Part shown: in pieces, positions 3,947 to 21,331 of the stretch
How positions within the stretch are numbered: position 1 is the first letter of the stretch
Layout: every line of letters starts with the position of its first letter
Origin: Desulforhopalus sp.
GTDB taxonomy: Bacteria > Desulfobacterota > Desulfobulbia > Desulfobulbales > Desulfocapsaceae
Assembly: GCA_024710585.1 (NCBI GenBank)
Contig: JANJUM010000102.1
Coordinates: 1 to 43,713 of the forward strand
DNA length: 43,713 nucleotides
Direction of reading: 5' to 3'
Position numbers and translations under genes: made by a program
The notes under the pieces: model-generated
Databases searched by the model: none
What the model saw: the letters and a program-made list of their open reading frames with translations, nothing else
What the model was told of the DNA's origin: nothing

Positions 3947-3962
3947 TGGCACTCGATTTGCT
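3947..3962 (+). promoter_or_regulatory. Predicted sigma-54 (-24/-12) promoter for the ferritin-like gene
   Basis: The sequence is TGGCAC, five bases, then TTGCT. The GG (3948-3949) and GC (3960-3961) are separated by exactly ten bases, matching the sigma-54 consensus at every key position. The predicted start site is near 3973, about 50 bases before the ATG at 4025, which excludes a possible upstream start codon at 3971. Confidence 0.7.
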
Positions 3963-4024: not shown

Positions 4025-4492
4025 ATGGATTTCACCGATTTCAACGCCATCATCGAGTTCGCCATCGCCCAGGAAGTGGAGGCCGCCGAATTCTACCGCG
4101 GTATCGGCACCAGCGAGGCCCAGTCGGAAAGAAAAGAGCTCTTCTTCCAGTTTGCCGCCGAGGAGGACAAGCACCGCCGCCTGCTCGAGGACCTCAAGAA
4201 AGGTGGGGGGGAACGAGCCATCGAGAAGTACAACTTCGTCTGGATCACCGACATCAAGCGCAGCAATTTTGTGGCGGACCTCAGCTACACCCCGGGGATG
4301 CCCTACCGCGACATCCTCCTCCTCGCCGCCCAGCGCGAGGAAAAGGCCCTGGCCCTCTATAACCTGCTGCTCGCCAAGGCCGAAGGCGACGAGGCGCGCA
4401 GCATCTTCAAAATCCTCTGCCAGGAAGAGGCCAAGCACAAGCTGGCCCTGGAAGGGACCCTCGACGCCTATATGGCCGAACTCGGCGACTGA
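4025..4492 (+). CDS. Ferritin-like / rubrerythrin-type diiron protein
   Basis: A 155-residue all-helical protein of the ferritin-like superfamily. It has the expected spaced acidic and His motifs of a diiron four-helix bundle: an early Glu followed by EAAEFY, then EEDKHRRLLEDL, later a QREEKALALY helix, and finally CQEEAKHKLALE. No C-terminal rubredoxin domain (CxxC pairs) is present, so this is the short form rather than full rubrerythrin. Such proteins handle peroxide or iron in anaerobes. I chose ATG 4025 over an in-frame ATG at 3971 because the predicted sigma-54 start site (about 3973) would not include the earlier codon. The gene sits between the divergent six-PAS kinase and the redox operon and appears to form its own transcription unit. 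The exact activity cannot be told from sequence. Confidence 0.85.
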   Translation: MDFTDFNAIIEFAIAQEVEAAEFYRGIGTSEAQSERKELFFQFAAEEDKHRRLLEDLKKGGGERAIEKYNFVWITDIKRSNFVADLSYTPGMPYRDILLLAAQREEKALALYNLLLAKAEGDEARSIFKILCQEEAKHKLALEGTLDAYMAELGD

Positions 4493-4700: not shown

Positions 4701-4716
4701 TGGTATATATCTTGCT
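4701..4716 (+). promoter_or_regulatory. Predicted sigma-54 (-24/-12) promoter for the redox operon
   Basis: TGG at 4701-4703 and TTGC at 4712-4715 place GG and GC exactly ten bases apart. The intervening bases (TATA then TATC) fit the degenerate TGGYRYR-N4-TTGCW pattern. The predicted start site is near 4727, where the transcript would begin with a small GAGCC/GGCTC stem-loop (4729-4745). The leader to the ATG at 4788 is about 60 bases. Confidence 0.6.
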
Positions 4717-4787: not shown

Positions 4788-5303
4788 ATGAGCCGGTACC
4801 ATCTCGCCCAGGATACCCGCAAATGCATCGGTTGCCATGCCTGCGAAGTGCAGTGCAAGTCCAATAAGAGCCTGCCGCCGGGTCCCCGGCTGTGCCAGAT
4901 CGTCGAGGTCGGCCCGAAGATGATCGGTGGCCTGCCGCGCACCTCGTTCATCTTCATGCTCTGCTTCCACTGCGAGAACCCGTGGTGCGTCGCCGCCTGC
5001 CCCACCGGCGCCATGCAGCAGCGCTCCTCGGACGGCATCGTCTTCGTCGACCACGACCTCTGCGTCGGCTGCAAGACCTGTATCGCCGCCTGCCCCTGGG
5101 GGGCGCCGCAGTGGAATGCGGAAATCGGCAAGGTGGTCAAATGCGATTACTGCAAGGACCGCCTCGACCAGGGCCTGAAGCCGGCCTGCGTCACCGCCTG
5201 CACCACCCAGTGCCTGGAATTCGGCGAGGGCCAGACCATGACCGAAAAGAAGCGCCAGCGCCATGCCGAAGCGGTGACCTCCTTCGAGCACAGCTCCTTC
5301 TAG
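4788..5303 (+). CDS. Four-cluster [4Fe-4S] ferredoxin subunit (DmsB/PsrB/HycB-like)
   Basis: A 171-residue electron-transfer subunit with four ferredoxin-type cluster motifs: Cys13/16/19/23, Cys59/62/67/71, Cys92/95/98/102 and Cys119/122/134/138. This is the arrangement of the iron-sulfur subunits of DMSO reductase-family enzymes. It has no signal peptide and so should be cytoplasmic. ATG 4788 is chosen because AAAAGGAG lies at good spacing before it; the in-frame ATG at 4767 has no ribosome-binding site. It is the first gene of the redox operon and probably wires the catalytic molybdopterin subunit (9111-11195) to the FAD subunit or to ferredoxin. The gap to the next gene is the longest in the operon (126 bases) and holds a hairpin. 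Confidence 0.9.
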   Translation: MSRYHLAQDTRKCIGCHACEVQCKSNKSLPPGPRLCQIVEVGPKMIGGLPRTSFIFMLCFHCENPWCVAACPTGAMQQRSSDGIVFVDHDLCVGCKTCIAACPWGAPQWNAEIGKVVKCDYCKDRLDQGLKPACVTACTTQCLEFGEGQTMTEKKRQRHAEAVTSFEHSSF

Positions 5304-5323
5304 AACGTCGGTAGCGGTGTTAA

Positions 5324-5353
5324 GGTTCCCGCCCTTCGCCCGGCGCGGGAACC
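5324..5353 (+). terminator. Intercistronic hairpin within the redox operon
   Basis: GGTTCCCGC and GCGGGAACC form a perfect 9-bp stem with a 12-base loop, 20 bases after the ferredoxin stop. There is no T-run, so it is more likely a processing or mRNA-stability element, or a leaky attenuator, than a strong intrinsic terminator. Confidence 0.4.
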
Positions 5354-5429
5354 ATGGTCAGTTATTCCGGCGGGGCCTGGGGCCGAACACGTCCACCCTC
5401 GCCACTTCCGTTCGCCACGAGAGCCTGCA

Positions 5430-7592
5430 ATGAGCGAAAATACCTGCCCGGTCCACCAGACCTTGCTGGAGTTGAAAGCCTTTCCCAGCACCCATCGCAT
5501 CGTCCACCCCCGCAGCCGCAGGCTGGTGGAGGAGATCGCCACCCTCATCGAGGATATCGTCACCTCGCGGGCCGGCGGCGATCACCTGCCGAGCATTGCC
5601 GCGCGGGCCGACGAACTGGCCGGCTTCGCTGGCGACAGCGGCGGCATGGCGGCCGGGGCATGGCTCCGCGAGCGGCTGGCCGAACATGCCGAGGTCTTCC
5701 GCAGCCATGTCGAGCATCGCAACTGCGCCGCTTCGGTGTGCGACCACCTCACCCCCGCCCCCTGCCAGATGGCCTGCCCGGCCGGCATCGACGTGCCCAC
5801 CTATGTCTCGCTCATCGCCCTCGGTCATGACGACGAGGCCATCGAGGTCATCCGCCGCGACAATCCCCTGCCCTGGGTATGCGGCCTGGTGTGCACCCGC
5901 CCCTGCGAGCTGATGTGCGTGCGCAAGCGCCTCGACACCCCGGTGTCGATCAAGTTTCTCAAGGCCTTCGCCTCCGAGCGGGCCATGTCCTGGGGTTGCT
6001 ACGAAAACCCGCCGCAGGCCCCGGCCAGCGGCCGCAGGGTGTGCGTCATCGGCGCCGGCCCCGGCGGGCTCAGCGCCGCCTACTACCTGGCCCAGCACGG
6101 CCATACGGTGCGGGTCATCGAGGCCCTGCCCCGCGCCGGCGGCATGATCCTCGTCGGCATCCCCCGCTACCGCCTGCCCTCCGACATCATCGACCGCGAA
6201 GTCGCCAAGATCGAGGAACTGGGCGTCGAGTTCCGCTACAACACCCGTTTCGGCAAGGACGTCGACCTCGACTCCCTGCGCGCCGAAGGCTTCGAGGCCT
6301 TCTTCTTCGCCATCGGCGCCCATGCTTCCTATACCCTGGGCATCGAGGGCGAGAACGACTTTCCCCAGGTCCATGGCGCCGTCGACTTCCTGCAGCGCGT
6401 CGCCCTCGGCGAACGGCGCTGCCCCGGCAAGCACGTGGTGGTCATCGGCGGCGGCAATGTCGCCATCGACGCCGCGCGCACCTGCCTGCGCCTCGGCAGC
6501 CAGCAGGTGACCATCGCCTATCGCCGCACCCGCCGCGAGATGCCGGCCGACCACGAGGAGGTCGAGCAGGCCGAGGAAGAGGGCATCCACTTTGAGCTGC
6601 TCACCGTGCCCATGGCAGTGGTCGGCGAGGAGGGCCGGGTCAGGGGCCTGCGCTGCCTCAAGGCCAAGCTGGTCACCGTGCCGGGCTCGAACCGCCAGTC
6701 GCCCAAGCCGATCGAGGGCAGCGACTACGAGATCCCCGCCGACGCCATCATCAGCGCCATCGGCCAGCGCATCGAGCGCCAGTGGTTCGACAAGATTCCC
6801 GAGCTGGCCTGGACCCATCGCGACACCATCCGCGTCAACACCATCACCATGGAGACCAGCGTCCCCGGCATCTTCGCCGCCGGCGACGCGGTCACCGGCC
6901 CGGCGACGGTCATCGAGGCCATCGGCGGCGGCAAGCGCGCCGCCATGGCCATCGACCGCTACCTCGGCGCCATCCCGCAGCCGAAACTGCCGCCGGTGCC
7001 GGTGCGGCAGCAGCGGGTGGCCTGCTTCGACGTCCCCGCCAACACCAAGATGGCCCTGAAGCGCCCGGAGATGCCCCTGCTCGGCATCGACCGCCGCCGC
7101 ACCACCTTCCAGCAGGTGGAACTGGGCTATACGGAAAACCAGACCCGCGAGGAGGCACGCCGCTGCCTGCGCTGCGACATCTGCCGGCGCTGCGGCAAAT
7201 GCGTCACCATCTGCAAGGAAAAGATGGGCGTCGATGCCCTGGCCCTCGGCTACCTCTCCTTCGACCACCCCGAGGAGAGCGATTTCCGTCGCACCGAGCA
7301 GCGCTGCATCAGCTGCGGCGCCTGCGCCGCCAACTGCCCGACCGGGGCCATGCGCATCGAGGACCGTGGCAACGAGCGCATCCTCTCGCTGTGCGGTACG
7401 GTGCTCAACCGTCAGCCGCTCATCGCCTGCAGTTCCTGCGGCACGGTAATCGGCACCGAGCGTTATCTCGCCTACATCCGCGGTCGGCTGGGCAAGCTGG
7501 CGGCCAAGATCGATCCGGCCGGACAGCTCTGCGACGCCTGCGCCCGCAGCAAGGGGCACCATCGCCCCGACACGGTGATGGTCACCGGCTGA
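5430..7592 (+). CDS. GltD-like FAD/NAD(P)H oxidoreductase with C-terminal ferredoxin and CxxC module
   Basis: A 720-residue fusion. The N-terminal part (about 100-180) is the Cys-rich fold found in the glutamate synthase small subunit and NfnB-type proteins, with CDHLTPAPCQMACPAGI and CGLVCTRPCELMC. Next come an FAD Rossmann motif (VIGAGPGGLSAA, about residue 205) and an NAD(P)H Rossmann motif (VIGGGNVAIDAA, about 335), and the AAGDAVTGPATV FAD signature. The C-terminus has two [4Fe-4S] motifs (CLRCDICRRCGKCVTIC and CISCGACAANC), then a pair of CxxC knuckles. The likely role is exchange of electrons between NAD(P)H and the molybdopterin and ferredoxin subunits. The architecture resembles SfrB, the NADPH-oxidising subunit described for the Geobacter soluble Fe(III) reductase, though orthology is not shown. 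The ATG at 5430 has only a weak GAGAG ribosome-binding site. Whether NADH or NADPH is used cannot be decided. Confidence 0.88.
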   Translation: MSENTCPVHQTLLELKAFPSTHRIVHPRSRRLVEEIATLIEDIVTSRAGGDHLPSIAARADELAGFAGDSGGMAAGAWLRERLAEHAEVFRSHVEHRNCAASVCDHLTPAPCQMACPAGIDVPTYVSLIALGHDDEAIEVIRRDNPLPWVCGLVCTRPCELMCVRKRLDTPVSIKFLKAFASERAMSWGCYENPPQAPASGRRVCVIGAGPGGLSAAYYLAQHGHTVRVIEALPRAGGMILVGIPRYRLPSDIIDREVAKIEELGVEFRYNTRFGKDVDLDSLRAEGFEAFFFAIGAHASYTLGIEGENDFPQVHGAVDFLQRVALGERRCPGKHVVVIGGGNVAIDAARTCLRLGSQQVTIAYRRTRREMPADHEEVEQAEEEGIHFELLTVPMAVVGEEGRVRGLRCLKAKLVTVPGSNRQSPKPIEGSDYEIPADAIISAIGQRIERQWFDKIPELAWTHRDTIRVNTITMETSVPGIFAAGDAVTGPATVIEAIGGGKRAAMAIDRYLGAIPQPKLPPVPVRQQRVACFDVPANTKMALKRPEMPLLGIDRRRTTFQQVELGYTENQTREEARRCLRCDICRRCGKCVTICKEKMGVDALALGYLSFDHPEESDFRRTEQRCISCGACAANCPTGAMRIEDRGNERILSLCGTVLNRQPLIACSSCGTVIGTERYLAYIRGRLGKLAAKIDPAGQLCDACARSKGHHRPDTVMVTG

Positions 7593-7613
7593 GACTCAAG
7601 GAGGGAGGAAATC

Positions 7614-7823
7614 ATGGTATTTCACAGAGGGCAACTGATACGGGTCAAGGGCCGCAGCAGCGATGAAAGCTGGGAATCGTACATGGACAGTCTCGTCGGC
7701 AGTCGCGGCATGGTCACCGACCCGGACACGCAGATCAACGACCCGGACTCCCTCATCGAGGTCAGCCTCGAAGACAAGGGCACCTTCCGGCTACCCCAGG
7801 ACTGTCTGGAGATCCTCGAATAG
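7614..7823 (+). CDS. Small 69-residue protein in redox operon, function unknown
   Basis: I do not recognise this family. The protein is 69 residues, acidic, with no Cys, no signal and no membrane segment. The pattern of short beta-strands (GQLIRVKGR, GSRGMVTDP, SLIEVSLED, TFRLPQDCLEIL) suggests a small SH3-like or KOW-like barrel. It is certainly translated, because AAGGAGGGAGG lies just before the ATG, the strongest ribosome-binding site in the operon. It starts 21 bases after the FAD subunit and ends 8 bases before the CBS-like gene. A role as an assembly factor or small structural subunit of the complex is a guess from position. Confidence 0.75.
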   Translation: MVFHRGQLIRVKGRSSDESWESYMDSLVGSRGMVTDPDTQINDPDSLIEVSLEDKGTFRLPQDCLEILE

Positions 7824-7831
7824 CGCAGGCC

Positions 7832-8281
7832 ATGTTCGTCGCCTCAGCCCTCGAGCATATCACCGTCCCGGCAGTGCGGGTCACCTCCAGCACCAGCCTG
7901 GCGGAGACGGCCATGATGATGACCGCCGCCGACACAGACACCGCTCTGGTTATCGACGACGACCGCTGCCATGGACTGGTCACTGCCGCCGATCTGCTGC
8001 GCACCCTGGCGACGGCGCCAACCCTGGAACAGGGCTGGCGCAGCGAAGTGACCCGGGCCTTGACGAGCGGTACCCCCCAGGCCAGCGGGGCGGAACGGCT
8101 GTCGAAAGTCGTCGAGCTGATGGGCGCGACGAATTGCGACTATCTGCTTCTCGTAACCGAGCAGGGCCCGGCAGTGCTCTCCTTCGTCAAGATGCTCAAA
8201 CTCGACAACGGCCTGCTGCGCCGCGAGCTCGACCATCTGCAAACCTATATCGAGGCGCTGCATGATGCGCCCAACGACTGA
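7832..8281 (+). CDS. CBS-domain-like protein in redox operon
   Basis: A 149-residue protein that looks like a pair of degenerate CBS repeats. The first is about residues 1-60, with TSLAETAMMMTAADTDTALVIDDD followed by GLVTAADLLR. The second is about 65-130, with ERLSKVVELMGATNCDYLLLVTE. A helical tail follows. CBS pairs usually bind adenine nucleotides and adjust the activity of partner proteins, so this may tune the redox complex to energy charge or NAD(P) state; that is inference. The gene lies 8 bases after the 69-residue gene and 9 bases before the NuoG-like gene, so it is co-transcribed. Its ribosome-binding site is weak, which suggests coupling to upstream translation. The second repeat departs most from the family, so the domain call is moderate. 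Confidence 0.7.
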   Translation: MFVASALEHITVPAVRVTSSTSLAETAMMMTAADTDTALVIDDDRCHGLVTAADLLRTLATAPTLEQGWRSEVTRALTSGTPQASGAERLSKVVELMGATNCDYLLLVTEQGPAVLSFVKMLKLDNGLLRRELDHLQTYIEALHDAPND

Positions 8282-8290
8282 GGACAGGTC

Positions 8291-9076
8291 ATGATCACCT
8301 TTTACCTGAACGACCGCGAGGTCCAGGCCGAACCGGACAGCACCGTGCTGCAGGTGGCGAGGGCCGCCGGCATCGACATCCCCACCCTCTGCCACCACCC
8401 GGCACTCAAGCCTGCCGGCTCGTGCAAGGTGTGCGCCGTGGCGGTGGAAAAGCTCACCGGGGAGAAAACCATCATGCTCAGCTGCCTGCTGCGGGTCAAG
8501 GAGGGCATGCGCGTCTTCACCAGCGGCGAGGAAGTGCACCAGGCGCGGAGCAGGGCCCTGAACAAGCTCATCGCCCTGGCACCGACCTCGGAGCGCATCC
8601 GCCACATCGCCGCCAAGGAGGGCATCGAATTGCCCCCCGCCCCCGATGGCTGCATCCGCTGCCGCCTGTGTATCCGCGTCTGCAAGGAGGTCATCGGCAA
8701 GGAAGCGCTGCGCATGGAGAAACAGGACGGACTGCAGATGGTGATCGCCGATCCCGAGCGCTGCATCGGCTGCGGCACCTGCGCCAACATCTGCCCGACC
8801 CATGCCATCACCATCCAGGAAGACGGGGGCACCCGCACCGTCAGCATCCGTGGCGAGGTTTTCGGGCGCCACGAGCTGCTGCGCTGTCAGGGCTGTGGCA
8901 AGTATTACGCCACGGAGAGACAGATCCAGCTGATGGAGAGGCGTACCGCCCCCCATCCCCAGGTCAAGGAGCATCACCACTACTGCGCCAATTGCGCCAA
9001 GCTTTTTTCCGACCGTTTGACGGTCCTCGAAAAGCAGCCGCCACGACAGCAAACCACCAACAAGCGGCAGCGCTAG
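8291..9076 (+). CDS. NuoG/HoxU-like [2Fe-2S] and 2x[4Fe-4S] electron-transfer protein
   Basis: A 261-residue protein with an N-terminal plant-type [2Fe-2S] domain (Cys34, Cys45, Cys48, Cys65), two ferredoxin motifs (CIRCRLCIRVC near residue 120 and CIGCGTCANIC near 158) and a C-terminal pair of CxxC knuckles (CQGC and CANC). This matches the electron-transfer part of complex I NuoG and hydrogenase HoxU. However, the His-Cys [4Fe-4S] motif that normally follows the 2Fe-2S domain is not visible. It has AGGACAGG before the ATG and is followed after 34 bases by the molybdopterin subunit. In many NuoG-like or formate dehydrogenase enzymes this module is fused to the catalytic subunit; here it is a separate polypeptide. 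Its C-terminal module closely resembles that of the FAD subunit. Confidence 0.88.
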   Translation: MITFYLNDREVQAEPDSTVLQVARAAGIDIPTLCHHPALKPAGSCKVCAVAVEKLTGEKTIMLSCLLRVKEGMRVFTSGEEVHQARSRALNKLIALAPTSERIRHIAAKEGIELPPAPDGCIRCRLCIRVCKEVIGKEALRMEKQDGLQMVIADPERCIGCGTCANICPTHAITIQEDGGTRTVSIRGEVFGRHELLRCQGCGKYYATERQIQLMERRTAPHPQVKEHHHYCANCAKLFSDRLTVLEKQPPRQQTTNKRQR

Positions 9077-9110
9077 GCTGCCGGCAGAGCTCTTAGAGAG
9101 GAGAACATCG

Positions 9111-11195
9111 ATGACTGCCAAATCAGTTTACAGTGTCTGCGGAATGTGTACCGTCAGGTGTCCGATCAAGGTAACCGTCGAAGACGGCCAGGTGACCTTT
9201 CTCCAGGGCAACCCCCATGTCCCGGCGATGAAAGGGGCGGTGTGCCCGCGCGGCGCCGCCGGCAACGCCCTGATCACCGACCATGAGCGGCCCCAGGCGC
9301 CGATGATCCGCTGCGGCGCCCGTGGCGAGGGCAAGTGGCGCACGGTCAGCTGGGACGAAGCCTTCGACTATGTCGCCGACAAGCTCAAGGCGATCAAGGA
9401 TCAGCACGGCGCCAGGGCCATCTCCCTCACCGACCGCGGCGGCCCCTTCCGCGACATGCACCGCGCCCTGCTGCGCGGCCTCGGCAGCCCCAACTACTGC
9501 AACCACGACTCCTCCTGCGCCCGCAACGTCCAGCACGCCTCCATGTCGGTGACCGGCATGGGCCGCAAAGGCTACGCCTACGACCTCAAGAACGCCAAGC
9601 ACGTGGTGCTGCAGCTGCGCAACATCTTCGAGGCGATCAACGTCCAGGAGGTCAACAACCTCATGGACGCCATGGAAAACGGCTGCAAGCTGACGGTCAT
9701 CGACATCCGCGCCACCGTCACCGCCTCCAAGGCCACCCGCTACTTCCAGGTGCGCCCCGGCTCCGACTACGCCTTCAACCTGGCGGTGATCCACGAGCTG
9801 CTCAAGAAGCGCCTCTACGACGAGAAGTACGCCGCCCGCTATATCGAGGGGCTGCGCGAGCTGGAGCAGTTCATCGAGCCCTACAGCCCGGAGTGGGCCG
9901 AGGGCGAGACCGGCGTGGACCCCAGCGAGCTGCGCCAGTTCGCCCGCGAGCTCGCCGCCGCCAAGGGCGCGGTGATCTGGCATCCCGGCTGGATGGCGGC
10001 GCGCTATCGCGACTCTTTCTACGTCTGCCGCACCGCCTATATCATCAACGCCCTGCTCGGCTCCTTCGGCGCCAAAGGCGGCATGCCCTTCGTCAGCAAG
10101 CCGGCCGACGTCGGCCGCAATGACCTCAAGGCCTTCGTCGACCTCTACCCGAAACCGGCCGACAAGCGCGCCGACGGCCTCGGCTGGCGCTATACCCACT
10201 TCGAGGAAGGCCCGGGCCTCGCCCACCTCATGTACGAGGCCATGGAGAGCAACGACCCCTATCCGGTCAAGGCCTACATCGCCTACCGCCACGATCCGCT
10301 GATGGGCTTCCCCGATCCCGAGCGGCTCAAGCAGATCTTCAGCAACCTCGACCTGCTGGTGGCGGTGACCTTCAGCTGGAGCGACACCGCCTGGTTCTCC
10401 GACGTGGTCCTGCCGCTGTCCCCCTATCTCGAGCGGGAGAGCATCATCGCCACCAAGAACGCCCTGAAGCCCCAGTTCTTCGTACGCCACCGCGCCATCG
10501 AGCCGCGCTACGACACCAGGGCCGACTGGGAGATCGTCGGCGGCCTGGCCAAGCGCCTCGGCCTGCCGGAGCTCGTGTTCGACCGCGTCGAGGACATCTG
10601 GCGCTTCCAGCTGGAAGGCACCGGCGTCGGCATGGAGGAGTTCGACAAGAGCGGCATGGTCAACCTCAGCGACAAACCGATCTACAAGGATATCAACAAC
10701 CTCAAGTTCAAGACGGGGAGCGGTAAGATCGAGATCATCTCGCCCAAGCTGACCAAGGCCGGCCTGCCCTCGCTGAAGGTCTACGAACCGCCGCAGACCC
10801 CGCCAGAGGGCACCTTCCGCCTCACCTTCGGGCGCTGCGCCCTGCACACCCAGGGCCATACCGTCAACAACCCCCTGCTCTTCGAGCAGGCGCCGATCAA
10901 CCCCTTGTGGATCAACGCCAAGGCCGCCGCCAAGCTGGGCATCGCCAACGGTGACACGGTGGTGGTCTCCCAGGGGGATCTCGAGCAGACGACGGTGGCC
11001 AAGGTCACCGAGTTCATCCATCCCGAGGCGGTGTTCCTCATCCACGGCTTCGGCCACCGCCTGCCGGTGGAGAGCCGCGCCTTCGGCAAGGGCATCGCCG
11101 ACCAGGACTTCATGCGCGGCGCGCTCACCAACTGGGATCCTGCCGGTGGCGCCATCGCCTATCAGGAGTATTTCGTCGCGGTGCGCAAGGCCTGA
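9111..11195 (+). CDS. Cytoplasmic molybdopterin (bis-MGD) oxidoreductase, catalytic subunit
   Basis: A 694-residue DMSO reductase-family enzyme. The N-terminus carries a [4Fe-4S] motif, Cys10/13/17 and Cys45 (VCPRG). The region NYCNHDSSCARN (about 128-139) is where the metal ligand sits, and Cys136 is the best candidate Mo/W ligand. This favours the thiosulfate/polysulfide/arsenate reductase branch over enzymes with Ser or Asp ligands. Further family signatures include SWDEAFDYVA, WFSDVVLPLSPYLERE and the C-terminal cofactor-binding domain (about 575-690). It lacks a Tat signal, so the enzyme is cytoplasmic, unlike periplasmic Psr/Phs enzymes. GAGGAGA precedes the ATG. With the NAD(P)H-FAD and ferredoxin subunits upstream, it probably forms a soluble NAD(P)H-linked reductase, or works in reverse as a dehydrogenase. 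The substrate is unknown; sulfur compounds and metals are reasonable possibilities. Confidence 0.88.
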   Translation: MTAKSVYSVCGMCTVRCPIKVTVEDGQVTFLQGNPHVPAMKGAVCPRGAAGNALITDHERPQAPMIRCGARGEGKWRTVSWDEAFDYVADKLKAIKDQHGARAISLTDRGGPFRDMHRALLRGLGSPNYCNHDSSCARNVQHASMSVTGMGRKGYAYDLKNAKHVVLQLRNIFEAINVQEVNNLMDAMENGCKLTVIDIRATVTASKATRYFQVRPGSDYAFNLAVIHELLKKRLYDEKYAARYIEGLRELEQFIEPYSPEWAEGETGVDPSELRQFARELAAAKGAVIWHPGWMAARYRDSFYVCRTAYIINALLGSFGAKGGMPFVSKPADVGRNDLKAFVDLYPKPADKRADGLGWRYTHFEEGPGLAHLMYEAMESNDPYPVKAYIAYRHDPLMGFPDPERLKQIFSNLDLLVAVTFSWSDTAWFSDVVLPLSPYLERESIIATKNALKPQFFVRHRAIEPRYDTRADWEIVGGLAKRLGLPELVFDRVEDIWRFQLEGTGVGMEEFDKSGMVNLSDKPIYKDINNLKFKTGSGKIEIISPKLTKAGLPSLKVYEPPQTPPEGTFRLTFGRCALHTQGHTVNNPLLFEQAPINPLWINAKAAAKLGIANGDTVVVSQGDLEQTTVAKVTEFIHPEAVFLIHGFGHRLPVESRAFGKGIADQDFMRGALTNWDPAGGAIAYQEYFVAVRKA

Positions 11196-11459: not shown

Positions 11460-12059
11460 CTACAGCTCCTTGAGCTCCTTGATCCACTTCTCGACCAGCA
11501 CCGGACGGTGTTCGGCCATGGCGTCGAACACCGCCTGCGGTTCGGCGCCGTCCTGGAGCAGACGGCGGTGATCGAGGCGCATGAAGCCCTCCTCCACCGC
11601 CCGGTCGCACATGGCGATCAGCGGCGCGAAATAGTCGCCGACGTTGACCAGCCCGATGGGCTTGGCATGAAAGCCGAGCTGCGCCCAGGTGAGCACCTCG
11701 AACAACTCCTCGAAGGTGCCGAAGCCGCCCGGCAGGGCGATGAAGCCGTCGGAGAGCTCGGCCATGCGCCGCTTGCGGGTATGCATGGAGTCGACGACCT
11801 CGATGCGCGTCAGGGAAAGGTGGCCGACCTCCTTGACCATCAGCGCCTCGGGGATGATGCCGGTGACACTGCCGCCGTCAGCGAGACAGGCATCGGCAAC
11901 GAGGCCCATCAGACCGACATTGCCGCCGCCATAGACCAGGCCGATGCCCCGCCTCGCCAGCAGTTTGCCAAGGGCCACGGCGGCTGCGCCGTACTCGAGG
12001 CGACGGCCCTTGCTCGATCCACAAAAAACACAGATATTTATGGGTTTCCAGGTTGACAT
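11460..12059 (-). CDS. LOG-family nucleoside monophosphate phosphoribohydrolase
   Basis: A 199-residue protein with the family hallmarks: ICVFCGSS near the start, the GLVYGGGNVGLMG nucleotide-binding loop, and PGGFGTFEELFE, the catalytic PGGxGTxxE motif. Members hydrolyse N-glycosidic bonds of nucleoside 5'-monophosphates; the name comes from plant cytokinin-activating LONELY GUY, and bacterial relatives are often called 'lysine decarboxylase' in error. The start is set at ATG 12059, which gives the usual family N-terminus. A TTG at 12110 would add 17 residues, and the GGAG near 12059 sits unusually close to the ATG, so the exact start is uncertain. The gene is monocistronic and convergent with the redox operon. 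Confidence 0.88.
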   Translation of the reverse strand: MSTWKPINICVFCGSSKGRRLEYGAAAVALGKLLARRGIGLVYGGGNVGLMGLVADACLADGGSVTGIIPEALMVKEVGHLSLTRIEVVDSMHTRKRRMAELSDGFIALPGGFGTFEELFEVLTWAQLGFHAKPIGLVNVGDYFAPLIAMCDRAVEEGFMRLDHRRLLQDGAEPQAVFDAMAEHRPVLVEKWIKELKEL

Positions 12060-12191
12060 CTCCGGTTCCGAAGGGATAGGGAAAGACAAGAGAGATTCTC
12101 GACTCCACAATCTTTTTCAGGTTACGCCGTGCCGGGAAAAGACAACCATTTCCCCGGCGCGGCGGCGTGGTCCGCCACGGCAAAAAAATCC

Positions 12192-12273: not shown

Positions 12274-12349
12274 GGGGCTGTAGCTCAGCTGGGAGAGCGA
12301 CGCGTTCGCAATGCGTAGGCCAGGGGTTCGATCCCCCTCAGCTCCACCA
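12274..12349 (+). tRNA. tRNA-Ala (anticodon CGC)
   Basis: A full cloverleaf with encoded CCA. The acceptor arms GGGGCTG and CAGCTCC pair with a G3-U70 wobble, the universal alanine identity element. The D-arm is GCTC/GAGC. The anticodon stem ACGCG/TGCGT encloses loop TTCGCAA, giving anticodon CGC, which reads GCG codons. The T-arm is AGGGG/CCCCT with TTCGATC in the loop. A strong terminator follows 11 bases later, so it is transcribed alone. Confidence 0.97.
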
Positions 12350-12360
12350 TGTACAAAAAA

Positions 12361-12406
12361 TCCCCTGGAGTGGAGAGTGAAAACTCCACTTCAGGGGATT
12401 TTTTTT
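12361..12406 (+). terminator. Strong rho-independent terminator of tRNA-Ala
   Basis: A 15-bp stem (12361-12375 with 12384-12398, one G-U pair) with an 8-base loop is followed by eight T residues at 12399-12406. This is the clearest intrinsic terminator in the window. Confidence 0.95.
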
Positions 12407-12441
12407 GCTCAGGCGGCCAGCAACGGCTGGTTGGACGTGCC

Positions 12442-13428: not shown

Positions 13429-15099
13429 TCAGCCGAGATCAACGATACGCGTCTCGCCGACATAGTCCTTGCCGCGGTAGCCGGTCATCGTCGCCATCTT
13501 GCGGGTCAGGTCGCCGATGGCCTGCAGGTTGCGGATGATGGTGCGCAGGTCGTCGCCCAGTTCCCCCTCCTCGAAGTCAGACTCGAGCAGCTGCGCCGTG
13601 CCCAGGGCGGCAAAAAGCGGCGTGTTGATCTCATGGGCGACGGTGCCGGCCATCTCGATGACCCCCTGCAGCTTGTGGCGCTCGGCCTGCTCCTCCTCGA
13701 GGCGCCGCTGCGCGGTGAGGTCGCGGATGACTTCGATGACGTACTCCACCTCGCCGGCATGGTTGCGCATCGGCGTCGCCGAGCGCTCGTACCAGTGCCG
13801 GCCGTCGGCCTCCAGCTGGGACTGGATGACGCTGACCATCTCGCCGGTGGCGAGCACCCGCGGCACAGGGCAGCCGTGTTCGCCATCCTCGGGTCGGCAC
13901 ACCTGGCCGTAGGCCATGCCGAGGATCTCGTGCTCCCTCTTGCCGCTGGCCTCAATGAAGGCGCGGTTGGCCATGACCACATGGCCCTTCTTGTCGATGA
14001 CCAGCAGTTGCGGACGGATGCAGTCGATGATGTTGCCGAGGAACTGCTCGTGCTCCTCGATCTGGTTGAAGAGCAGGGTGATCTTGCGGTAGGTGGCGGC
14101 GTTCTTGATCGCCGCCCCGCCGACCTCGGCCACCGCCCTGGCGAAGTTGATCTCGGCCTGAGAGAAGACCCGCTTTTCGGTGGCGAGGATCCTGATGACG
14201 CCGAGGATCTCGCCGTCCACCTTGATCGGCACCGCCAACAGCGAGTGGATGCCCTCGCGGCGCATATGCTCGTGGTAGAGGACGCGGTCGTCGCTGGCGA
14301 CGTTGACGATGGCCACCGGCTCGCCGCGCAGGGCCCTGATGGTGTTCTCCTCTTCCTCGACCTCGCCGCGTTCGAGGTATTGCCGCGACAGCCCGAAGGA
14401 GGCGGCCAGCTCGAGGCGGTGACTGTGCGGCTTGAGCAGCCTGATGGTGCAGCCCTGGGCGCGCAGGCTGCGCGGCAGCATGGCGACGATGGTCTGCAGC
14501 ACCGAATCGAGATCGAGCGTCGAGTTGACCATCTTGGAGATGGCCTGCACCTCGCGGAGGAAGTTGACCTGCTGCTCGAGCTGGCCGAACATGGCCGCAT
14601 TGGAGAGGGCGATGCCCACCTGCTCCGCCAGGGCGAGGACGAAATCGATCTCCTCGCCGCCAAAGACGCGCCTGCTTCGCGACAAGAGGCGCATGATGCC
14701 GATGACCCGGCCCTGGTAGGAGATGGGCAGGGTCAGCACCGAGACGATGCCCTCGCGCCGGGCCGCCTCGCGGAAGGGGCGGTGCGGGCTGGCGGCGACA
14801 TCCTCCATGGCCACCGGTTGCCCGGCGGAGACCATGCTCATGGTCTCCGCCGAGTCGACGCCGTGGCGGGAAAGATATTCCGCCGACACCCCCGACGCCG
14901 CGCCGAGCACGAAGCTGTCGCCGTCGTCGCTGACCAGCCTGATGGTGCAGGCGTCGCTGCCGAGCAGCTCCGGCAGGGCCAGGACGATGGTCTCCATGAC
15001 CTGGCGCGGCTCGTGGGCCATGGCGATCATCTTGGTGACCTGCTGGAAGACCAGCAAGTAGCGACGATCGCGATGTTGCGTTGCACTGTTCACCTGCAT
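13429..15099 (-). CDS. GAF-GAF-PAS protein with HisKA phospho-acceptor helix but no ATPase domain
   Basis: A 556-residue cytoplasmic protein. Two GAF domains (about 25-160 and 190-335) are followed by a PAS domain (about 350-470, with CRPEDGEHGCPVPRV) and the dimerisation/phospho-acceptor helix, whose H-box AHEINTPLF puts the phospho-acceptor at His489. The protein then stops 67 residues later, with no N, G1, F or G2 boxes, so it cannot bind ATP itself. The HisKA helices look intact and the stop is clean. It may be phosphorylated in trans by the kinase at 15748-17334, or act as a phosphorelay or dimerisation partner; both are inference. ATG 15099 is chosen because upstream frame sequence is low-complexity and Arg/Ser-rich. 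The gap 15100-15322 shows nothing else. Confidence 0.85.
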   Translation of the reverse strand: MQVNSATQHRDRRYLLVFQQVTKMIAMAHEPRQVMETIVLALPELLGSDACTIRLVSDDGDSFVLGAASGVSAEYLSRHGVDSAETMSMVSAGQPVAMEDVAASPHRPFREAARREGIVSVLTLPISYQGRVIGIMRLLSRSRRVFGGEEIDFVLALAEQVGIALSNAAMFGQLEQQVNFLREVQAISKMVNSTLDLDSVLQTIVAMLPRSLRAQGCTIRLLKPHSHRLELAASFGLSRQYLERGEVEEEENTIRALRGEPVAIVNVASDDRVLYHEHMRREGIHSLLAVPIKVDGEILGVIRILATEKRVFSQAEINFARAVAEVGGAAIKNAATYRKITLLFNQIEEHEQFLGNIIDCIRPQLLVIDKKGHVVMANRAFIEASGKREHEILGMAYGQVCRPEDGEHGCPVPRVLATGEMVSVIQSQLEADGRHWYERSATPMRNHAGEVEYVIEVIRDLTAQRRLEEEQAERHKLQGVIEMAGTVAHEINTPLFAALGTAQLLESDFEEGELGDDLRTIIRNLQAIGDLTRKMATMTGYRGKDYVGETRIVDLG

Positions 15100-15322
15100 C
15101 CCCCATGTGCTCTGCGGGCGACCGCCGTCACGCCCTGGCGAGCCTCTTGTTGTTGGCGAAGGGCTGCGGCCGGCATGACACTCGGCCCCCTGGCCGCAGC
15201 GATCGACAGCCCCGCTCCGCCAGCGGCGGCCGGTCCTGGCCGGGCTTTTACCGGAGGCAGACCGCAGACCTCGCGGCGAGCCGGAACGAAAGGACGACGA
15301 ATCACGGGAAGGCCTCTCCCGC

Positions 15323-15709
15323 CTACCCGGCCGCCTGGTCCTGAGCGGGCCGGCTCCGCAACACCTTGTCGACCTTCTCCTCGAGTTCCTGACGATCAAT
15401 GGGCTTGACGCAGTATTCGTTGGCGCCGAGATTGATCGCCTCGCGCGCCGTCTCCACCGTCGGGTAACCGGTGAGCATGATCGCCTGCATCGCCTGATTC
15501 TTTTTCTTCAACTCGGCCAGCACCTCGATGCCGCTCATCTTCTTGAGCTTGATATCGAGGATGGCGAGATCGACCCTGTTGGTCTCGGCATAGCTCAAGG
15601 CCTCCTCTTCCTCGGTGAAGGTGTGCACCGTGTGCCCCTTCTTGGCGAGGATCTTGCCGACCAGGACGGTTGCGTCGAGGACGTCGTCCAATACCAGTAT
15701 CTCTGCCAT
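15323..15709 (-). CDS. Stand-alone response regulator receiver (CheY-like)
   Basis: A 128-residue single receiver domain with the full catalytic set: acidic pair Asp8/Asp9 (LVLDDV), phospho-acceptor Asp52 (AILDIKL), switch Thr80 (MLTGYP) and Lys102 (CVKPID). It has no output domain, so it must signal through protein contacts or phosphotransfer. AAGGAGCT lies at good spacing before ATG 15709. The gene starts 38 bases after the upstream kinase gene ends and is followed by the ATPase-less GAF-PAS protein. A three-part relay of kinase, receiver and HisKA acceptor is an attractive reading of this order but is not proven by sequence. Confidence 0.92.
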   Translation of the reverse strand: MAEILVLDDVLDATVLVGKILAKKGHTVHTFTEEEEALSYAETNRVDLAILDIKLKKMSGIEVLAELKKKNQAMQAIMLTGYPTVETAREAINLGANEYCVKPIDRQELEEKVDKVLRSRPAQDQAAG

Positions 15710-15747
15710 ATGTAGCTCCTTTTTGTGGTGTGCGTGAGTCATCGCCT

Positions 15748-17330
<1,583 letters not shown>

Positions 17331-17334
<4 letters not shown>

Positions 17335-17801
17335 CGCCCTCCCTTTGCGGCGACTTCCTGGGAACGGTAAAAATGACGCATGGCCAGGAAGAGGAAGAAC
17401 AGGGCCGGGGTGATCAGCACATGGTCGAGGGCGGTGAGGAAATAGAGCAGCCGTCCCATGGTCAGCGGCTCGGCCAGCCGGGAGGAGAGATACCCGTTGC
17501 CGGTGACGATGGCATCCTGCGGCAAGGCCATCTGGGCGAAGTGGCCGATCAGGGCAATGGCGTTCCAGGCGATCATCAGCCGACAGAACCACTGCAGGAG
17601 CAGCCAGCCACGGCCGTTGAAGCCGCTGCGACGGATATCCCAGATGAGGTACCACAGGGCGCCGAGATACTGCACATGGGCCAGCTGATGCACGACGACG
17701 CCTTCGCTGCCGCCATGGGTCTGCAGCGCGGCGGCGTCGCCGACGCCGAAGACCAGCAGCCAGCAGCTGGCGGCGATGACGGTGGTGAAGAGTTTTTTCA
17801 T
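17331..17801 (-). CDS. Small membrane protein, predicted sensor partner of the downstream kinase
   Basis: I do not recognise a named family. The protein has 156 residues: a signal-like N-terminus (MKKLFTTVIAAS onward), then three or four hydrophobic segments separated by short loops rich in His and Trp (VVVHQLAHVQYLGALWYLIWD, CRLMIAWNAIALIGHFAQMAL, LLYFLTALDHVLITPALFFLFLAMRHFYR). Several His lie at helix ends, so haem or metal binding is conceivable. The stop overlaps the kinase ATG by four bases. Two starts are possible: ATG 17801, giving a clean signal peptide, or ATG 17855, which has a stronger GGAGG ribosome-binding site but would put 18 hydrophilic residues before the hydrophobic segment. 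I prefer 17801. Confidence 0.75.
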
Positions 17802-19807: not shown

Positions 19808-19836
19808 TTGCCGAAAGCGGGCAGGAGCGGTATGGT
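19808..19836 (+). promoter_or_regulatory. Predicted sigma-70 promoter for the sigma-54 activator gene
   Basis: TTGCCG (19808-19813) and TATGGT (19831-19836) are 17 bases apart, with a predicted start near 19843, about 55 bases before the ATG. Confidence 0.4.
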
Positions 19837-19897
19837 GCGAGTCGCCTTTGACTGCCCCCCGGGTGCCCCGCTTTCAACCCGTTCGCAAGGACCGCCC

Positions 19898-21331
19898 ATG
19901 ACGGAACTCACCGCACACGCCGCGGAAGACAAAAAACTGGTGATGATCGTCGACGACGAGCCGGACATGCTGGCCATGCTCCGCCTCACCCTGGAAAAAA
20001 AGTGCGGCTGCCTCGTCGTCACCGCCCCCTCCGGCCTCAAGGCCCTGGAACTGCTTGGCGAATGCTCGCCTGACGCGGTGATCACCGACATCAAGATGCC
20101 CGACCTTGACGGGCTGCAGCTGCTGCAGAGGATCCAGGCCTACGACCACACCATGTCGGTCATCGTCATGACCGGCTACGGCACCATCGACATGGCCGTG
20201 CAGGCCATCAAGGACGGGGCCTACGATTTCCTGCAGAAGCCCTTCGACAAGGACCATATCGTCCGCGTGGTGCGCAACTGCCTGGAGCGCACCACCCTGC
20301 TGCGCGCCAACCGCAACCTCAAGGACAAACTGGAACGGCTGGCGCCGCCGGCCGGCTTCGTCGGGCAGAGCAAGGCGCAGAAGCGGGTGCTCGACCTGCT
20401 GGCGCGGGTCGCCGACACCGACGCCACCGTGCTTATCCGTGGCGAGAGCGGCACCGGCAAGGAGTTGGCGGCACGGGCCCTGCACGACCTCAGCAACCGC
20501 CGCGCGCAGCGCATGATAGTCGTCAACTGCCCGGCGCTGCCCGAAAACGTTCTCGAGAGCGAGCTCTTCGGTTACAGCCGCGGCGCCTTTACCGGGGCCG
20601 CCCACGCCAAGAAGGGCCTCTTCCTCGAGGCCCATGGCTCGACCATCCTCCTCGACGAGATCGCCGACATCCCGGTGCAGGTGCAGACCAAGCTGCTGCG
20701 CGTGCTGCAGGAAAAAGAGATCCAGCCCCTCGGGCAGAACCGCACCATCAAGGTCGACGTGCGGGTGGTCGCCTCCACCAACCAGAACCTCGAGGAAAAG
20801 ATCAAGAACGGCGAGTTCCGCGCCGACCTCTTCTACCGCCTCAACGTGGTCAGCGTGGTCATGCCCAACCTGCGCGAGATGGTCGAGGACGTACCGCTCC
20901 TCGTCCATCACTTCCTCGCCCTGTTCAAGCGGGAGTACGAGCGGCCGGAGCTGGAGATCGCCCCGGAGGCCTTGCGCCTTCTCTACCGCCGCCCCTGGCC
21001 GGGTAACGTCCGCGAACTGGAGAACACCATCAAGCGGCTCGTGCTGTCGGCGGCCGGGGGGCGCATCGAGGCTGAGGATCTCGAGCCGGCCGCAGCCGCC
21101 GGGCCGTCGCTGCCGGGGGACGAGCTGTTCACCGACCTCGACGCCCTCTCCTACAACGAGGCCAAGGCAGAAGTGCTGCGGCGCTTCTCCGAGGAGTACC
21201 TCAGCAACCTCCTCGCCCGCCACCAGGGCAACGTGACCAGCGCCGCCGCGCACTGCGGCCTGGAACGCCAGGCCCTGCAGCGCATCATGCGCCGCTACGG
21301 CATCATCTCGGTGGACTTCAAGCAGCGCTGA
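19898..21331 (+). CDS. NtrC-family sigma-54-dependent response regulator
   Basis: A 477-residue enhancer-binding protein. The receiver (about 13-130) has an acidic pair in IVDDEPD, phospho-acceptor Asp64 (VITDIKMPD) and Lys in FLQKPFD. The AAA+ domain (about 150-390) has Walker A GESGTGKE (182-189), the intact sigma-54-contacting GAFTGA loop (229-234) and the arginine-rich RADLFYRLNV sensor segment. A Fis-type helix-turn-helix closes the protein (GNVTSAAAHCGLERQALQRIMRRYGI). AAGG precedes ATG 19898. No kinase is adjacent, so its partner is unknown; the kinases at 1-3747, 15748-17334 and 34926-37751 are candidates. Its family role makes it a possible activator of the two sigma-54-like promoters at 3947 and 4701, but this is inference only. 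Confidence 0.95.
   Translation: MTELTAHAAEDKKLVMIVDDEPDMLAMLRLTLEKKCGCLVVTAPSGLKALELLGECSPDAVITDIKMPDLDGLQLLQRIQAYDHTMSVIVMTGYGTIDMAVQAIKDGAYDFLQKPFDKDHIVRVVRNCLERTTLLRANRNLKDKLERLAPPAGFVGQSKAQKRVLDLLARVADTDATVLIRGESGTGKELAARALHDLSNRRAQRMIVVNCPALPENVLESELFGYSRGAFTGAAHAKKGLFLEAHGSTILLDEIADIPVQVQTKLLRVLQEKEIQPLGQNRTIKVDVRVVASTNQNLEEKIKNGEFRADLFYRLNVVSVVMPNLREMVEDVPLLVHHFLALFKREYERPELEIAPEALRLLYRRPWPGNVRELENTIKRLVLSAAGGRIEAEDLEPAAAAGPSLPGDELFTDLDALSYNEAKAEVLRRFSEEYLSNLLARHQGNVTSAAAHCGLERQALQRIMRRYGIISVDFKQR

Follow-up and report, generated by a model that had tools for sequence, protein, structure and literature searches.

What is reduced, and with electrons from which donor, by the molybdoenzyme encoded between positions 4788 and 11195 of a 43,713-nucleotide contig of Desulforhopalus sp. 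(GCA_024710585.1, JANJUM010000102.1; this whole stretch, contig C9 of the genome, is referred to as the window)? An earlier note on this DNA had described a soluble NAD(P)H-linked molybdopterin reductase of fully open substrate, possibly capable of electron bifurcation or confurcation. According to the analysis reported here, the operon probably encodes a soluble molybdenum enzyme using NADPH in the cytoplasm to cleave S-S bonds. All six open reading frames were found again at their earlier coordinates, and a rubrerythrin-like gene (Rub) was recognized upstream, the seventh operon member in close relatives:

Rub, 4025..4492, plus strand: rubrerythrin/ferritin-like protein of 155 aa, start codon ATG 4025 (Pfam PF02915, 35.7 bits on the longer reading frame from 3971)
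A, 4788..5303, plus strand: multi-cluster 4Fe-4S ferredoxin of 171 aa, start codon ATG 4788
B, 5430..7592, plus strand: GltD-like FAD/NADPH subunit of 720 aa that has an Fe-S domain at the N-terminus, 2x[4Fe-4S] at the C-terminus and a CxxC...CxxC site
C, 7614..7823, plus strand: small protein of 69 aa with no match in Pfam or PHROG
D, 7832..8281, plus strand: CBS-domain protein of 149 aa
E, 8291..9076, plus strand: NuoG-N/BfuA-like Fe-S carrier
F, 9111..11195, plus strand: molybdopterin catalytic subunit of 694 aa with [4Fe-4S] cysteines 10/13/17/45 and the Mo ligand Cys136 in [ND]HDxxC

By Pfam, A is a protein with multiple 4Fe-4S clusters, and B combines a GltD-like FAD domain with Fer4_20 and a ferredoxin domain at its C-terminus. 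D matched CBS, E a 2Fe-2S and two 4Fe-4S domains, and F molybdopterin oxidoreductase. The order Rub-A-B-C-D-E-F is kept in four relatives (G004, G006, G007 and G017; loci L029-L032) and also occurs in Desulfopila aestuarii (L070), Desulfobulbus sp. Tol-SR (L071) and Desulfoprunum benzoelyticum (L102), with overlaps between the locus sets (L102 is the G017 contig, L068 the G006 contig and L072 the G004 contig; L069 ends at a contig edge). In three distant genomes (L172, L178, L181) the order is F-A-B-C-D-E, and there F is 46% and D 27% identical. The six genes are a conserved set and no chance grouping; reading frames, Pfam domains and recurrence agree with the operon described earlier. The same operon was not found in the open-licence papers searched.

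F is a Tat-less molybdenum subunit that is closest, by sequence and by fold, to polysulfide/thiosulfate reductase. In the PDB sequence search PsrA (2vpw) was the best match with 353.7 bits, the next protein reaching 171.7, and the fold comparison likewise placed PsrA (Z 39.3, rmsd 2.4, 670 residues) before ArrA (Z 36.4, rmsd 2.9, 677 residues). Among the NCBIfam models, PhsA scored 485 bits versus 228 for Fdh-alpha; the 485.3 bits on the PhsA equivalog NF012032 lie below its curated cut-off of 694, and the ArrA model reached 159.8 bits versus a cut-off of 1600. For the 15 A1 members the PhsA model gave the best E-value, while other Mo families also matched all 15. Cys136 lines up with the PsrA cysteine and is present in all 103 alignment rows, bearing out the Cys-ligated PsrA/PhsA-like subunit of the earlier note. 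The cluster ligands are similarly constant (Cys10 in 100 of 103 rows with three gaps, Cys13 and Cys17 in 102 each with one gap each, Cys45 in all). The residue after Cys136 is Ala in 86 rows and Gly in 17, where FdhF, whose Sec was written as Cys in the alignment, has His; with the Sec/Cys-His pair absent, formate dehydrogenase was rejected as an identity for F.

The F rows form a separate clade (support 100/100), and no tight grouping of F with an enzyme of known activity having the same six-gene operon was seen. The family-specific invariant residues H132, D133, R170, H291, R298 and R393 differ from PsrA, and therefore the substrate of F may differ as well. The clade is common in sulfate reducers and was detected in 74 of 297 genomes sampled across the phylum, own genome counted. 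No Tat leader was found on the window F, in which the first Fe-S cysteine is residue 10. An RRx[FLVIM] motif ahead of this cysteine occurred in 2 of 61 judgeable family reading frames versus 6 of 10 outgroup frames, with 19 of the 80 family frames called too short to judge and some outgroup starts truncated. The two family frames with the motif (L115, L130) resemble over-long starts. As for a membrane anchor (NrfD/PsrC), no multi-TM gene is present inside the operon.

A contains 18 cysteines, sufficient for four [4Fe-4S] clusters, and is a PsrB/DmsB/HycB-like ferredoxin (Pfam Fer4_11; best PDB match 2vpw_B, E 3.2e-31). Where a named locus has an A of at least 39% identity (36 loci), the gene lies at most 600 bases from F in 17, at 0.6-6 kb in 17 and beyond in two. 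E, with [2Fe-2S], two [4Fe-4S] and a CxxC...CxxC site, keeps 16 cysteines invariant in nine rows; its best PDB match both by sequence and by model was 9mqx_A (Z 14.6, 226 aligned residues), at a large rmsd of 8.8 and with a low pTM of 0.48 for the predicted model. Of 22 B loci, 19 have C close to B, and the rows of a 12-row alignment are 59-84% identical to the window C. D matched CBS (PF00571) with 31.3 bits, its L172 copy with 78.9 bits in two stretches, and is a possible nucleotide-sensing regulator. Rub occupies the same place in L029-L032, L070, L071 and L102.

For the electron donor, residues YRR364-366 of B are unchanged in 13 of 13 rows. In DsrL-2, this motif is given as the mark of NADP(H) use in passages of PMC7596348, and from its invariance we infer that B uses NADP(H). 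The earlier picture of a soluble, NAD(P)H-linked enzyme is upheld, and YRR speaks for NADPH as the donor. B is the usual NADPH partner of F: of 36 B matches above 740 bits, 31 have an F no more than 9 kb away (the own genome was excluded, and scoring covered three candidates in each genome). Of the 80 named loci, half of which are without full flanks, 44 have neither A within 3.5 kb nor B within 6 kb of F (L139 and L141 carry A, or A and B, further away), and F may also take electrons from other donors.

Some B relatives begin with a NuoF-like domain whose FMN/NADH motifs are not intact; the complete motifs are kept in none of seven fused relatives. The window B keeps a stub of the NuoF domain at most, probably residues 1-95. 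Searched alone, its residues 1-107 matched nothing in Pfam significantly, a point against the proposed reading. A NuoF domain (PF01512) was not found on the window contig, four copies being located on other contigs of the genome, and no NuoE domain was found among the operon proteins. With no NuoF domain on the contig and a stub at most in B, bifurcation of the NuoF type is unlikely, and this part of the earlier proposal is not borne out. B appears to be derived from a NuoF-GltD fusion with decayed FMN/NADH motifs; the loss series would lead from a fused NuoF-like domain with broken motifs (~1130 and ~1000 aa) to the stub in the window protein (720 aa).

Several observations bear on the substrate. 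Among fully flanked loci, TauE/SafE genes lie close to F in 13 of the 17 that have A or B versus 3 of the 23 that have neither; in a further set they occur at 13 of 20 loci, one locus there (L174) being, by its length, the L117 contig again. Within the window no TauE-like gene was matched. Related operons also adjoin a two-component/sigma-54 cassette. For D. alaskensis, PMC4215793 lists fitness values of -0.79 and -0.30 for a putative PhsAB (Dde_1076:Dde_1075) on lactate/thiosulfate, a small effect, and in the same passages cites, by personal communication, slower growth of a D. vulgaris phsA mutant on thiosulfate. Dde_1076 is a probable F-type homologue on the basis of the Desulfovibrio sp. 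A2 family (f54), in which 32 of 59 genomes have F-type matches and, for 23 of these 32, no second PhsA-like match at E<=1e-60 was obtained (locus L198 is identical to L146). The TauE/SafE and regulatory genes beside related operons, together with the mild thiosulfate effect, speak for a sulfur compound such as thiosulfate or polysulfide as the likely substrate, which is thus no longer fully open as formerly stated. NADPH-dependent thiosulfate reduction is uphill under standard conditions, so that polysulfide or the other direction is possible.

In the proposed mechanism, NADPH would give electrons to the FAD of B. Fe-S clusters in B, E and A would then relay them to F, with its [4Fe-4S] cluster and Mo-bis-pyranopterin site, at which an S-S sulfur compound (most likely thiosulfate, polysulfide coming second) would be reduced to sulfide. 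A would join the module to F as PsrB does to PsrA, C would be a small subunit associated with B, D would act as a regulator that senses nucleotides, and Rub would be a protective di-iron protein. As a descendant of a NuoF-GltD fusion minus the FMN/NADH site, the complex would have NADPH as sole electron source and no NuoF-type bifurcating site. This soluble NADPH complex with a NuoF-derived module is the best explanation, and the chance that it holds as a whole is about even. Gene content, conservation, motifs, closest relatives and the decay of the NuoF motifs in the fused relatives were observed directly; assembly of the complex, the path and direction of the electrons, the substrate, the parts played by C, D and Rub, the ancestry of the window B and the regulation are deduced from these.

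The same complex could act on a substrate without an S-S bond, either an oxyanion (arsenate, selenate) or an organic sulfur compound entering via the TauE/SafE-family permease. We regard this as rather unlikely: the clade-specific invariant His and Arg residues of F, at positions where PsrA, ArrA and FdhF mostly differ, and the second rank of ArrA by fold would fit it, as would TSUP-family permeases of Desulfovibrio without known substrates (passages of PMC4641369), but PsrA comes first by sequence and by fold, the ArrA score is far below its cut-off, and the lowest energetic-condition fitness of the probable D. alaskensis homologue is that on thiosulfate (data excerpted from PMC4215793). If F were inactive and structural, like the FdhF-like domain of StnC, the complex would work as a transhydrogenase or an NADPH:ferredoxin oxidoreductase. 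Taken together, E, B and F resemble StnC in split form, and the Fdh-like domain of StnC is described as inactive in passages of PMC10482914, but the invariant Mo ligand and the occurrence of F without B nearby leave this reading hardly credible.

Two further readings concern energetics and direction. NADPH and reduced ferredoxin might jointly power uphill thiosulfate reduction, or the reverse, with the FAD of B acting as in NfnL. Coupling would be needed for thiosulfate by the known potentials, the solved proteins closest to B are 9bov_A, from an entry titled electron-bifurcating NfnABC, and 8oh5_C, from what we take to be the Stn complex, and E is closest to a subunit of the electron-bifurcating W-aldehyde oxidoreductase 9mqx. 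Against this, the genome's NuoF domains lie on other contigs, none of the seven fused B relatives has the motifs complete, and the homologous GltD FAD in Stn is non-bifurcating according to passages of PMC10482914, which makes such coupling distinctly unlikely. Oxidative running, with NADP+ reduced by electrons from sulfur disproportionation or sulfide/sulfite condensation, is in our estimate very unlikely. The host order includes disproportionating genera and such enzymes are frequently reversible, but F also occurs in sulfate reducers for which disproportionation is not known to us, and the MOLY disproportionation cluster, as proposed in passages of PMC12998232, includes a MolyAB that is likely extracellular, and a chaperone resembling TorD, neither of which was seen at the operon.

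Rub, the regulators downstream and the sigma-54-like site at 3947-3962 are absent from the earlier note. Regulatory features of the window are:

3947..3962, plus strand: sigma-54-like site TGGCACTCGATTTGCT with one mismatch, 62 bases ahead of the Rub ATG
4701..4716, plus strand: weaker sigma-54-like site with two mismatches, upstream of A
13429..15399, minus strand: GAF-GAF-PAS histidine kinase (Pfam; start uncertain), homologues adjoining the operon in L070, L072 and L102
15323..15751, minus strand: stand-alone receiver-domain response regulator (Pfam; start uncertain), a recurrent neighbour
15748..17334, minus strand: PAS histidine kinase with N-terminal membrane part (Pfam), a recurrent neighbour
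17331..17801, minus strand: m155-like small membrane protein, 42% identical to the L040 copy (which has no Pfam match), with homologues at other loci
17892-17877: sigma-54-like site with one mismatch, upstream of the m155-like gene
19808..21331, plus strand: NtrC-type sigma-54 activator with receiver domain (Pfam), homologues at several loci

Two sites in the window, that at 3947-3962 among them, have at most one mismatch, and nine have at most two, which is chance level (mean 10.97). Comparable sites lie upstream of A or F in some relatives; the NtrC-type activator is not enriched beside F-A/B loci. Expression of the operon is probably switched by a two-component/sigma-54 circuit.

In the usual account, sulfate reducers reduce sulfur species via DsrAB and membrane complexes. 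The operon, if the preferred S-S-cleaving reading is true, would give sulfur intermediates a second route in the cytoplasm and tie the NADPH pool to sulfur metabolism, by a widespread soluble molybdenum enzyme fed by NADPH, or possibly by formate in some Desulfobacterales. We tentatively propose, at somewhat less than an even chance, an undescribed family of NADPH:thiosulfate/polysulfide reductases of sulfate reducers, in which a PsrA-type enzyme was combined with an Stn-like two-flavin module made of NuoF and GltD, the NADH/FMN flavin was lost stepwise and D serves as energy-charge sensor. This would make visible a route from a bifurcating architecture to a single-donor enzyme; the B series suggests how a bifurcation-type module sheds one flavin, and the evolution of bifurcation would become testable within one family.

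Compared with known systems, the operon shares catalytic fold, [4Fe-4S] cluster, Cys Mo ligand and a PsrB-like A with PsrABC/PhsABC (T. thermophilus 2vpw), but has neither Tat leader nor multi-TM anchor gene, and its F, of a clade of its own, is fed by a soluble NADPH module. The cytoplasmic PsrA2B2 of Campylobacterota, compared by its description, is likewise a two-gene molybdenum reductase with no C subunit, whereas a B/C/D/E module is not described in the passages on it in PMC10045233. The MOLY cluster of sulfur disproportionators, with its Tat-exported MolyA/B and TorD-like MolyC (outlined in passages of PMC12998232), was rejected as a counterpart, F having no Tat leader and the operon proteins including no TorD-like gene. 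DsrL-2 resembles B in its Fe-S/FAD/NADPH/C-terminal ferredoxin architecture and YRR, but B is linked to F and not to dsrA, which the genome carries on another contig (C228), and has the extra CxxC...CxxC site and the N-terminal stub. The W-aldehyde oxidoreductase 9mqx has a NuoG-like subunit similar to E and a HycB-like subunit similar to A; the catalytic subunit of the operon is instead of the PsrA type, and a NuoF subunit is not on the contig. The StnABC/NsoABC/NfnABC transhydrogenases are NADPH-linked and combine GltD, NuoG-like and Mo-fold parts; they hold the GltD and NuoG-like parts in a single chain with an inactive Fdh-like domain, but here B, E and F are separate chains, in accordance with the split domains noted earlier, the Mo ligand is retained and, again, NuoF is not encoded on the contig. 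SfrAB of Geobacter, for which identities of SfrA/SfrB to StnC are given in passages of PMC7483475, and to which the likeness noted earlier was judged on the GltD part, joins by description an NADPH subunit of the GltD type to a subunit of a Mo family; by the same description, the operon differs in that a protein of its own carries the NuoG-like part and the molybdenum subunit is PsrA-like.

The window comprises one complete contig (C9, 43.7 kb). All six open reading frames that the earlier note had placed at 4788-11195 were found there, and domain searches bore out its multi-cluster ferredoxin, A, which is of the PsrB/DmsB kind. B combines a GltD-like domain, Fer4_20, an FAD/NADPH domain and a C-terminal ferredoxin domain, while D is a CBS protein, E is NuoG-like and F is a molybdopterin oxidoreductase. 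For the small protein C (69 aa), no match was obtained in Pfam or PHROGs. A rubrerythrin-like gene (Rub) lies 5′ of A, and the order Rub-A-B-C-D-E-F is retained in close relatives. Since the genome also contains dsrA, sulfate reduction is the probable way of life of the host. No description of the operon was found in the open-licence literature searched.

For comparison, the best 80 of 417 relatives from a search with the F alignment were used as named loci, half of them without full flanks; among these, the closest operon relatives belong to Desulfoprunum, Desulfopila and Desulfobulbus. In 36 of the 80 loci, F has A at a distance of up to 3.5 kb or B at up to 6 kb (per gene near F: A 25, B 22, C 19, E 15). 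F matches at E ≤ 1e-150 occurred in 74 of 297 genomes sampled from the phylum, own genome included. Using these F positions and a B profile search with three candidates scored per genome, 36 B places above 740 bits were detected outside the window's genome, 31 of them within 9 kb of an F. The synteny survey of the six-gene block proposed in the earlier note showed the set to be conserved even in three distant loci (L172, L178, and L181, of 20 fetched), which have the order F-A-B-C-D-E although their F is just 46% identical. Judged from this conserved order and from the proximity of B to F across genomes, the six genes are one old functional unit, with B as a usual partner of F.

By sequence, the nearest relative of F is PsrA, the catalytic subunit of polysulfide reductase. 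Across the F family (103 alignment rows), all four [4Fe-4S] cysteines are retained, as is the PsrA-type Mo-ligand cysteine, in agreement with the Cys metal ligand suspected earlier. In the same rows, H132, D133, R170, H291, R298, and R393 are invariant residues specific to the family and absent from PsrA. Among the matches listed, the predicted fold of F (mean pLDDT 82.9) reached Z 39.3 with the PsrA structure 2vpw vs 36.4 with ArrA, and Foldseek again placed PsrA nearest (E 1.4e-54). In a 63-row tree, 49 F rows including that of the window formed one clade (100/100) separate from other PsrA/PhsA-like rows; because the PDB rows used as outgroup are partial and long-branched, only this clade was relied on. 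Assignment of F as formate dehydrogenase, ArrA or acetylene hydratase was rejected due to weaker scores and different active-site residues. F has no Tat leader, as had been claimed. An RRx[FLVIM] stretch ahead of the Fe-S cysteine was present in 2 of 61 judgeable family ORFs (L115 and L130), after 19 of 80 called too short at the start had been left out, and both stretches look like over-long starts. The genome as a whole is rich in Mo/W enzymes: it has 18 molybdopterin-domain places, of which five contain an in-frame TGA, and a Tat-type PsrA/PhsA-like gene on contig C142.

The closest solved structures of B are 9bov_A and 8oh5_C. By its title, 9bov is NfnABC, and the matched chain contains GltD; 8oh5 is an Stn complex, with 8oh5_C as its GltD-containing chain. 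The motif YRR is invariant in 13 of 13 B rows, and a study of DsrL-2 links it with NADP(H) (PMC7596348). B shares architecture and motif with DsrL, yet it is linked to F and not to dsrA, and was therefore not assigned as DsrL. B and E have a C-terminal module in common (about 34-38% identity, tblastn). In E, 16 cysteines are invariant (9 rows). Its best match, 9mqx_A, belongs to an electron-bifurcating W-aldehyde oxidoreductase, and the E model (pTM 0.48) is a rough fold match to this subunit (rmsd 8.8). Electrons would likely pass from NADPH to the FAD of B, through the clusters of B and E to A, and finally to F.

The earlier note had also considered electron bifurcation or confurcation, for which relatives of B with NuoF-like parts are relevant. 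Seven distant B relatives of 996-1133 aa from 20 B loci fetched carry N-terminal extensions, and the fused NuoF-like homologues include L162, L163, L164, L169, L170, and L175. Four fused proteins were scanned against Pfam, with 25 families listed for each. The Nuo51 FMN domain was found in three (31.5 bits at a cut-off of 31.2; 22.5 and 18.6 below it), SLBB in three (two above cut-off) and the NuoF 4Fe-4S domain above cut-off in one, while L164 matched none of these among its 25 families. The NuoF 4Fe-4S domain was also detected in the unfused B of L050 (70.5 bits) and weakly, below cut-off, in that of L142. When aligned with the NuoF-like L182 of the window's genome, none of the seven fused proteins retained a full GRGGAGFP or DESEP-type motif, and GLRGRG was retained in one (L170, 1047 aa). 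The fused form is thus apparently a decayed two-flavin protein. Residues 1-107 of the window's B, without a significant Pfam match, can be aligned with the L142 copy and may therefore be a stub of a NuoF-like domain. Neither NuoE nor NuoF is among the operon's proteins, and PF01512 domains, four in this genome, were found on other contigs only. In Stn, the equivalent FAD is reported to be non-bifurcating (PMC10482914). Together with the incomplete motifs, these points make bifurcation by the complex unlikely. The best-scoring own-genome paralogue of B in tblastn (L158 on contig C54, 1165 aa, 41%) has a second FAD-binding stretch ahead of its GltD domain, HdrA-like by eye, and is preceded by a heterodisulfide-reductase-like gene.

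Downstream of F, at a distance of 2.2 kb, a kinase/regulator cassette is encoded on the opposite strand, and an activator gene follows further on:

13429-17801, minus strand: genes for two histidine kinases, for a stand-alone receiver and for a small membrane protein; the kinase, the receiver and the membrane protein are repeatedly found next to F-A(-B) operons
19808-21331, plus strand: NtrC-type activator

Between operon and regulators lie a LOG/lysine-decarboxylase-like gene (11460-12110, minus strand) and an EamA transporter gene (12349-13419, plus strand). Divergent from Rub, a multi-PAS histidine kinase gene with an ABC-type substrate-binding domain (PF04392) is cut by the contig end (1-3945, minus strand), with a sigma-54-like site between the two. 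Neighbours were counted in fully flanked loci only, 17 with A or B vs 23 without. Near F, response regulators (7 vs 1), PAS kinases (10 vs 2), the small membrane protein m155 (7 vs 1), and TauE/SafE-family genes (13 vs 3) were counted, as was NtrC (4 vs 4), which was not enriched (p 0.70). A TauE-like gene was also present in 13 of 20 further loci, at least one of which duplicates a named locus (L174 = L117); the window has no TauE-like match.

In the window, two sigma-54-like sites have just one mismatch; they lie directly 5′ of Rub and of m155, while sites with up to two mismatches show no excess (9 vs a shuffle mean of 10.97). With up to two mismatches and fixed GG and GC, upstream sites were found in 12 of 59 regions of A- or B-bearing loci, 33 of 599 for all genes with a gap (a set containing these regions), 3 of 74 regions of loci without A or B, and 328 of 16,000 random stretches. 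With up to three mismatches allowed, L068 has no such site ahead of Rub and A, and the sole site of L102 there has three. The sigma-54 evidence is thus supportive, if uneven.

Of the 44 loci that have neither A nor B close to F, 17 carry a gene resembling formate dehydrogenase, interrupted by an in-frame TGA (CART*HAPTV), at most 4.6 kb from F (L078, L079, L082, L090, L097-L101, L106, L114, L115, L120, L127, L129, L130, and L138). The TGA of this NuoG-like enzyme probably encodes selenocysteine. The closeness of the gene to F hints that a different low-potential donor can supply F with electrons.

Regarding the substrate, PhsAB of D. alaskensis is described as a two-gene unit with mild thiosulfate fitness defects (PMC4215793). 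Within the Desulfovibrio sp. A2 family, assigned via the identity of L198 with L146, F matches at E ≤ 1e-60 occurred in 33 of 59 genomes, 32 with the F-type and 10 with a second kind (29-35% identity), the latter without an F-type in one genome. In 20 F loci fetched from this family as 4-kb stretches, an A-like gene was beside F in 10 and B in none. By these counts, Dde_1076, the putative PhsA of D. alaskensis, is probably F-type. A MOLY disproportionation cluster was rejected, as Tat and TorD are missing. Based on the neighbours, the fitness data and the probable type of Dde_1076, thiosulfate or polysulfide is our best guess. The standard potentials are about −400 mV for thiosulfate and −320 mV for NADPH; by these values, NADPH could reduce thiosulfate only if product levels were kept low or extra drive were supplied, and polysulfide therefore stays a candidate.

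Among known systems, the complex is separated from PhsABC by anchor, export and curated score, and from Stn by the bifurcating subunits, which are missing here. As far as its sequences tell, it combines PsrA/PhsA-type catalysis, placed in the cytoplasm, with an NADPH module whose descent is Stn/DsrL-like.
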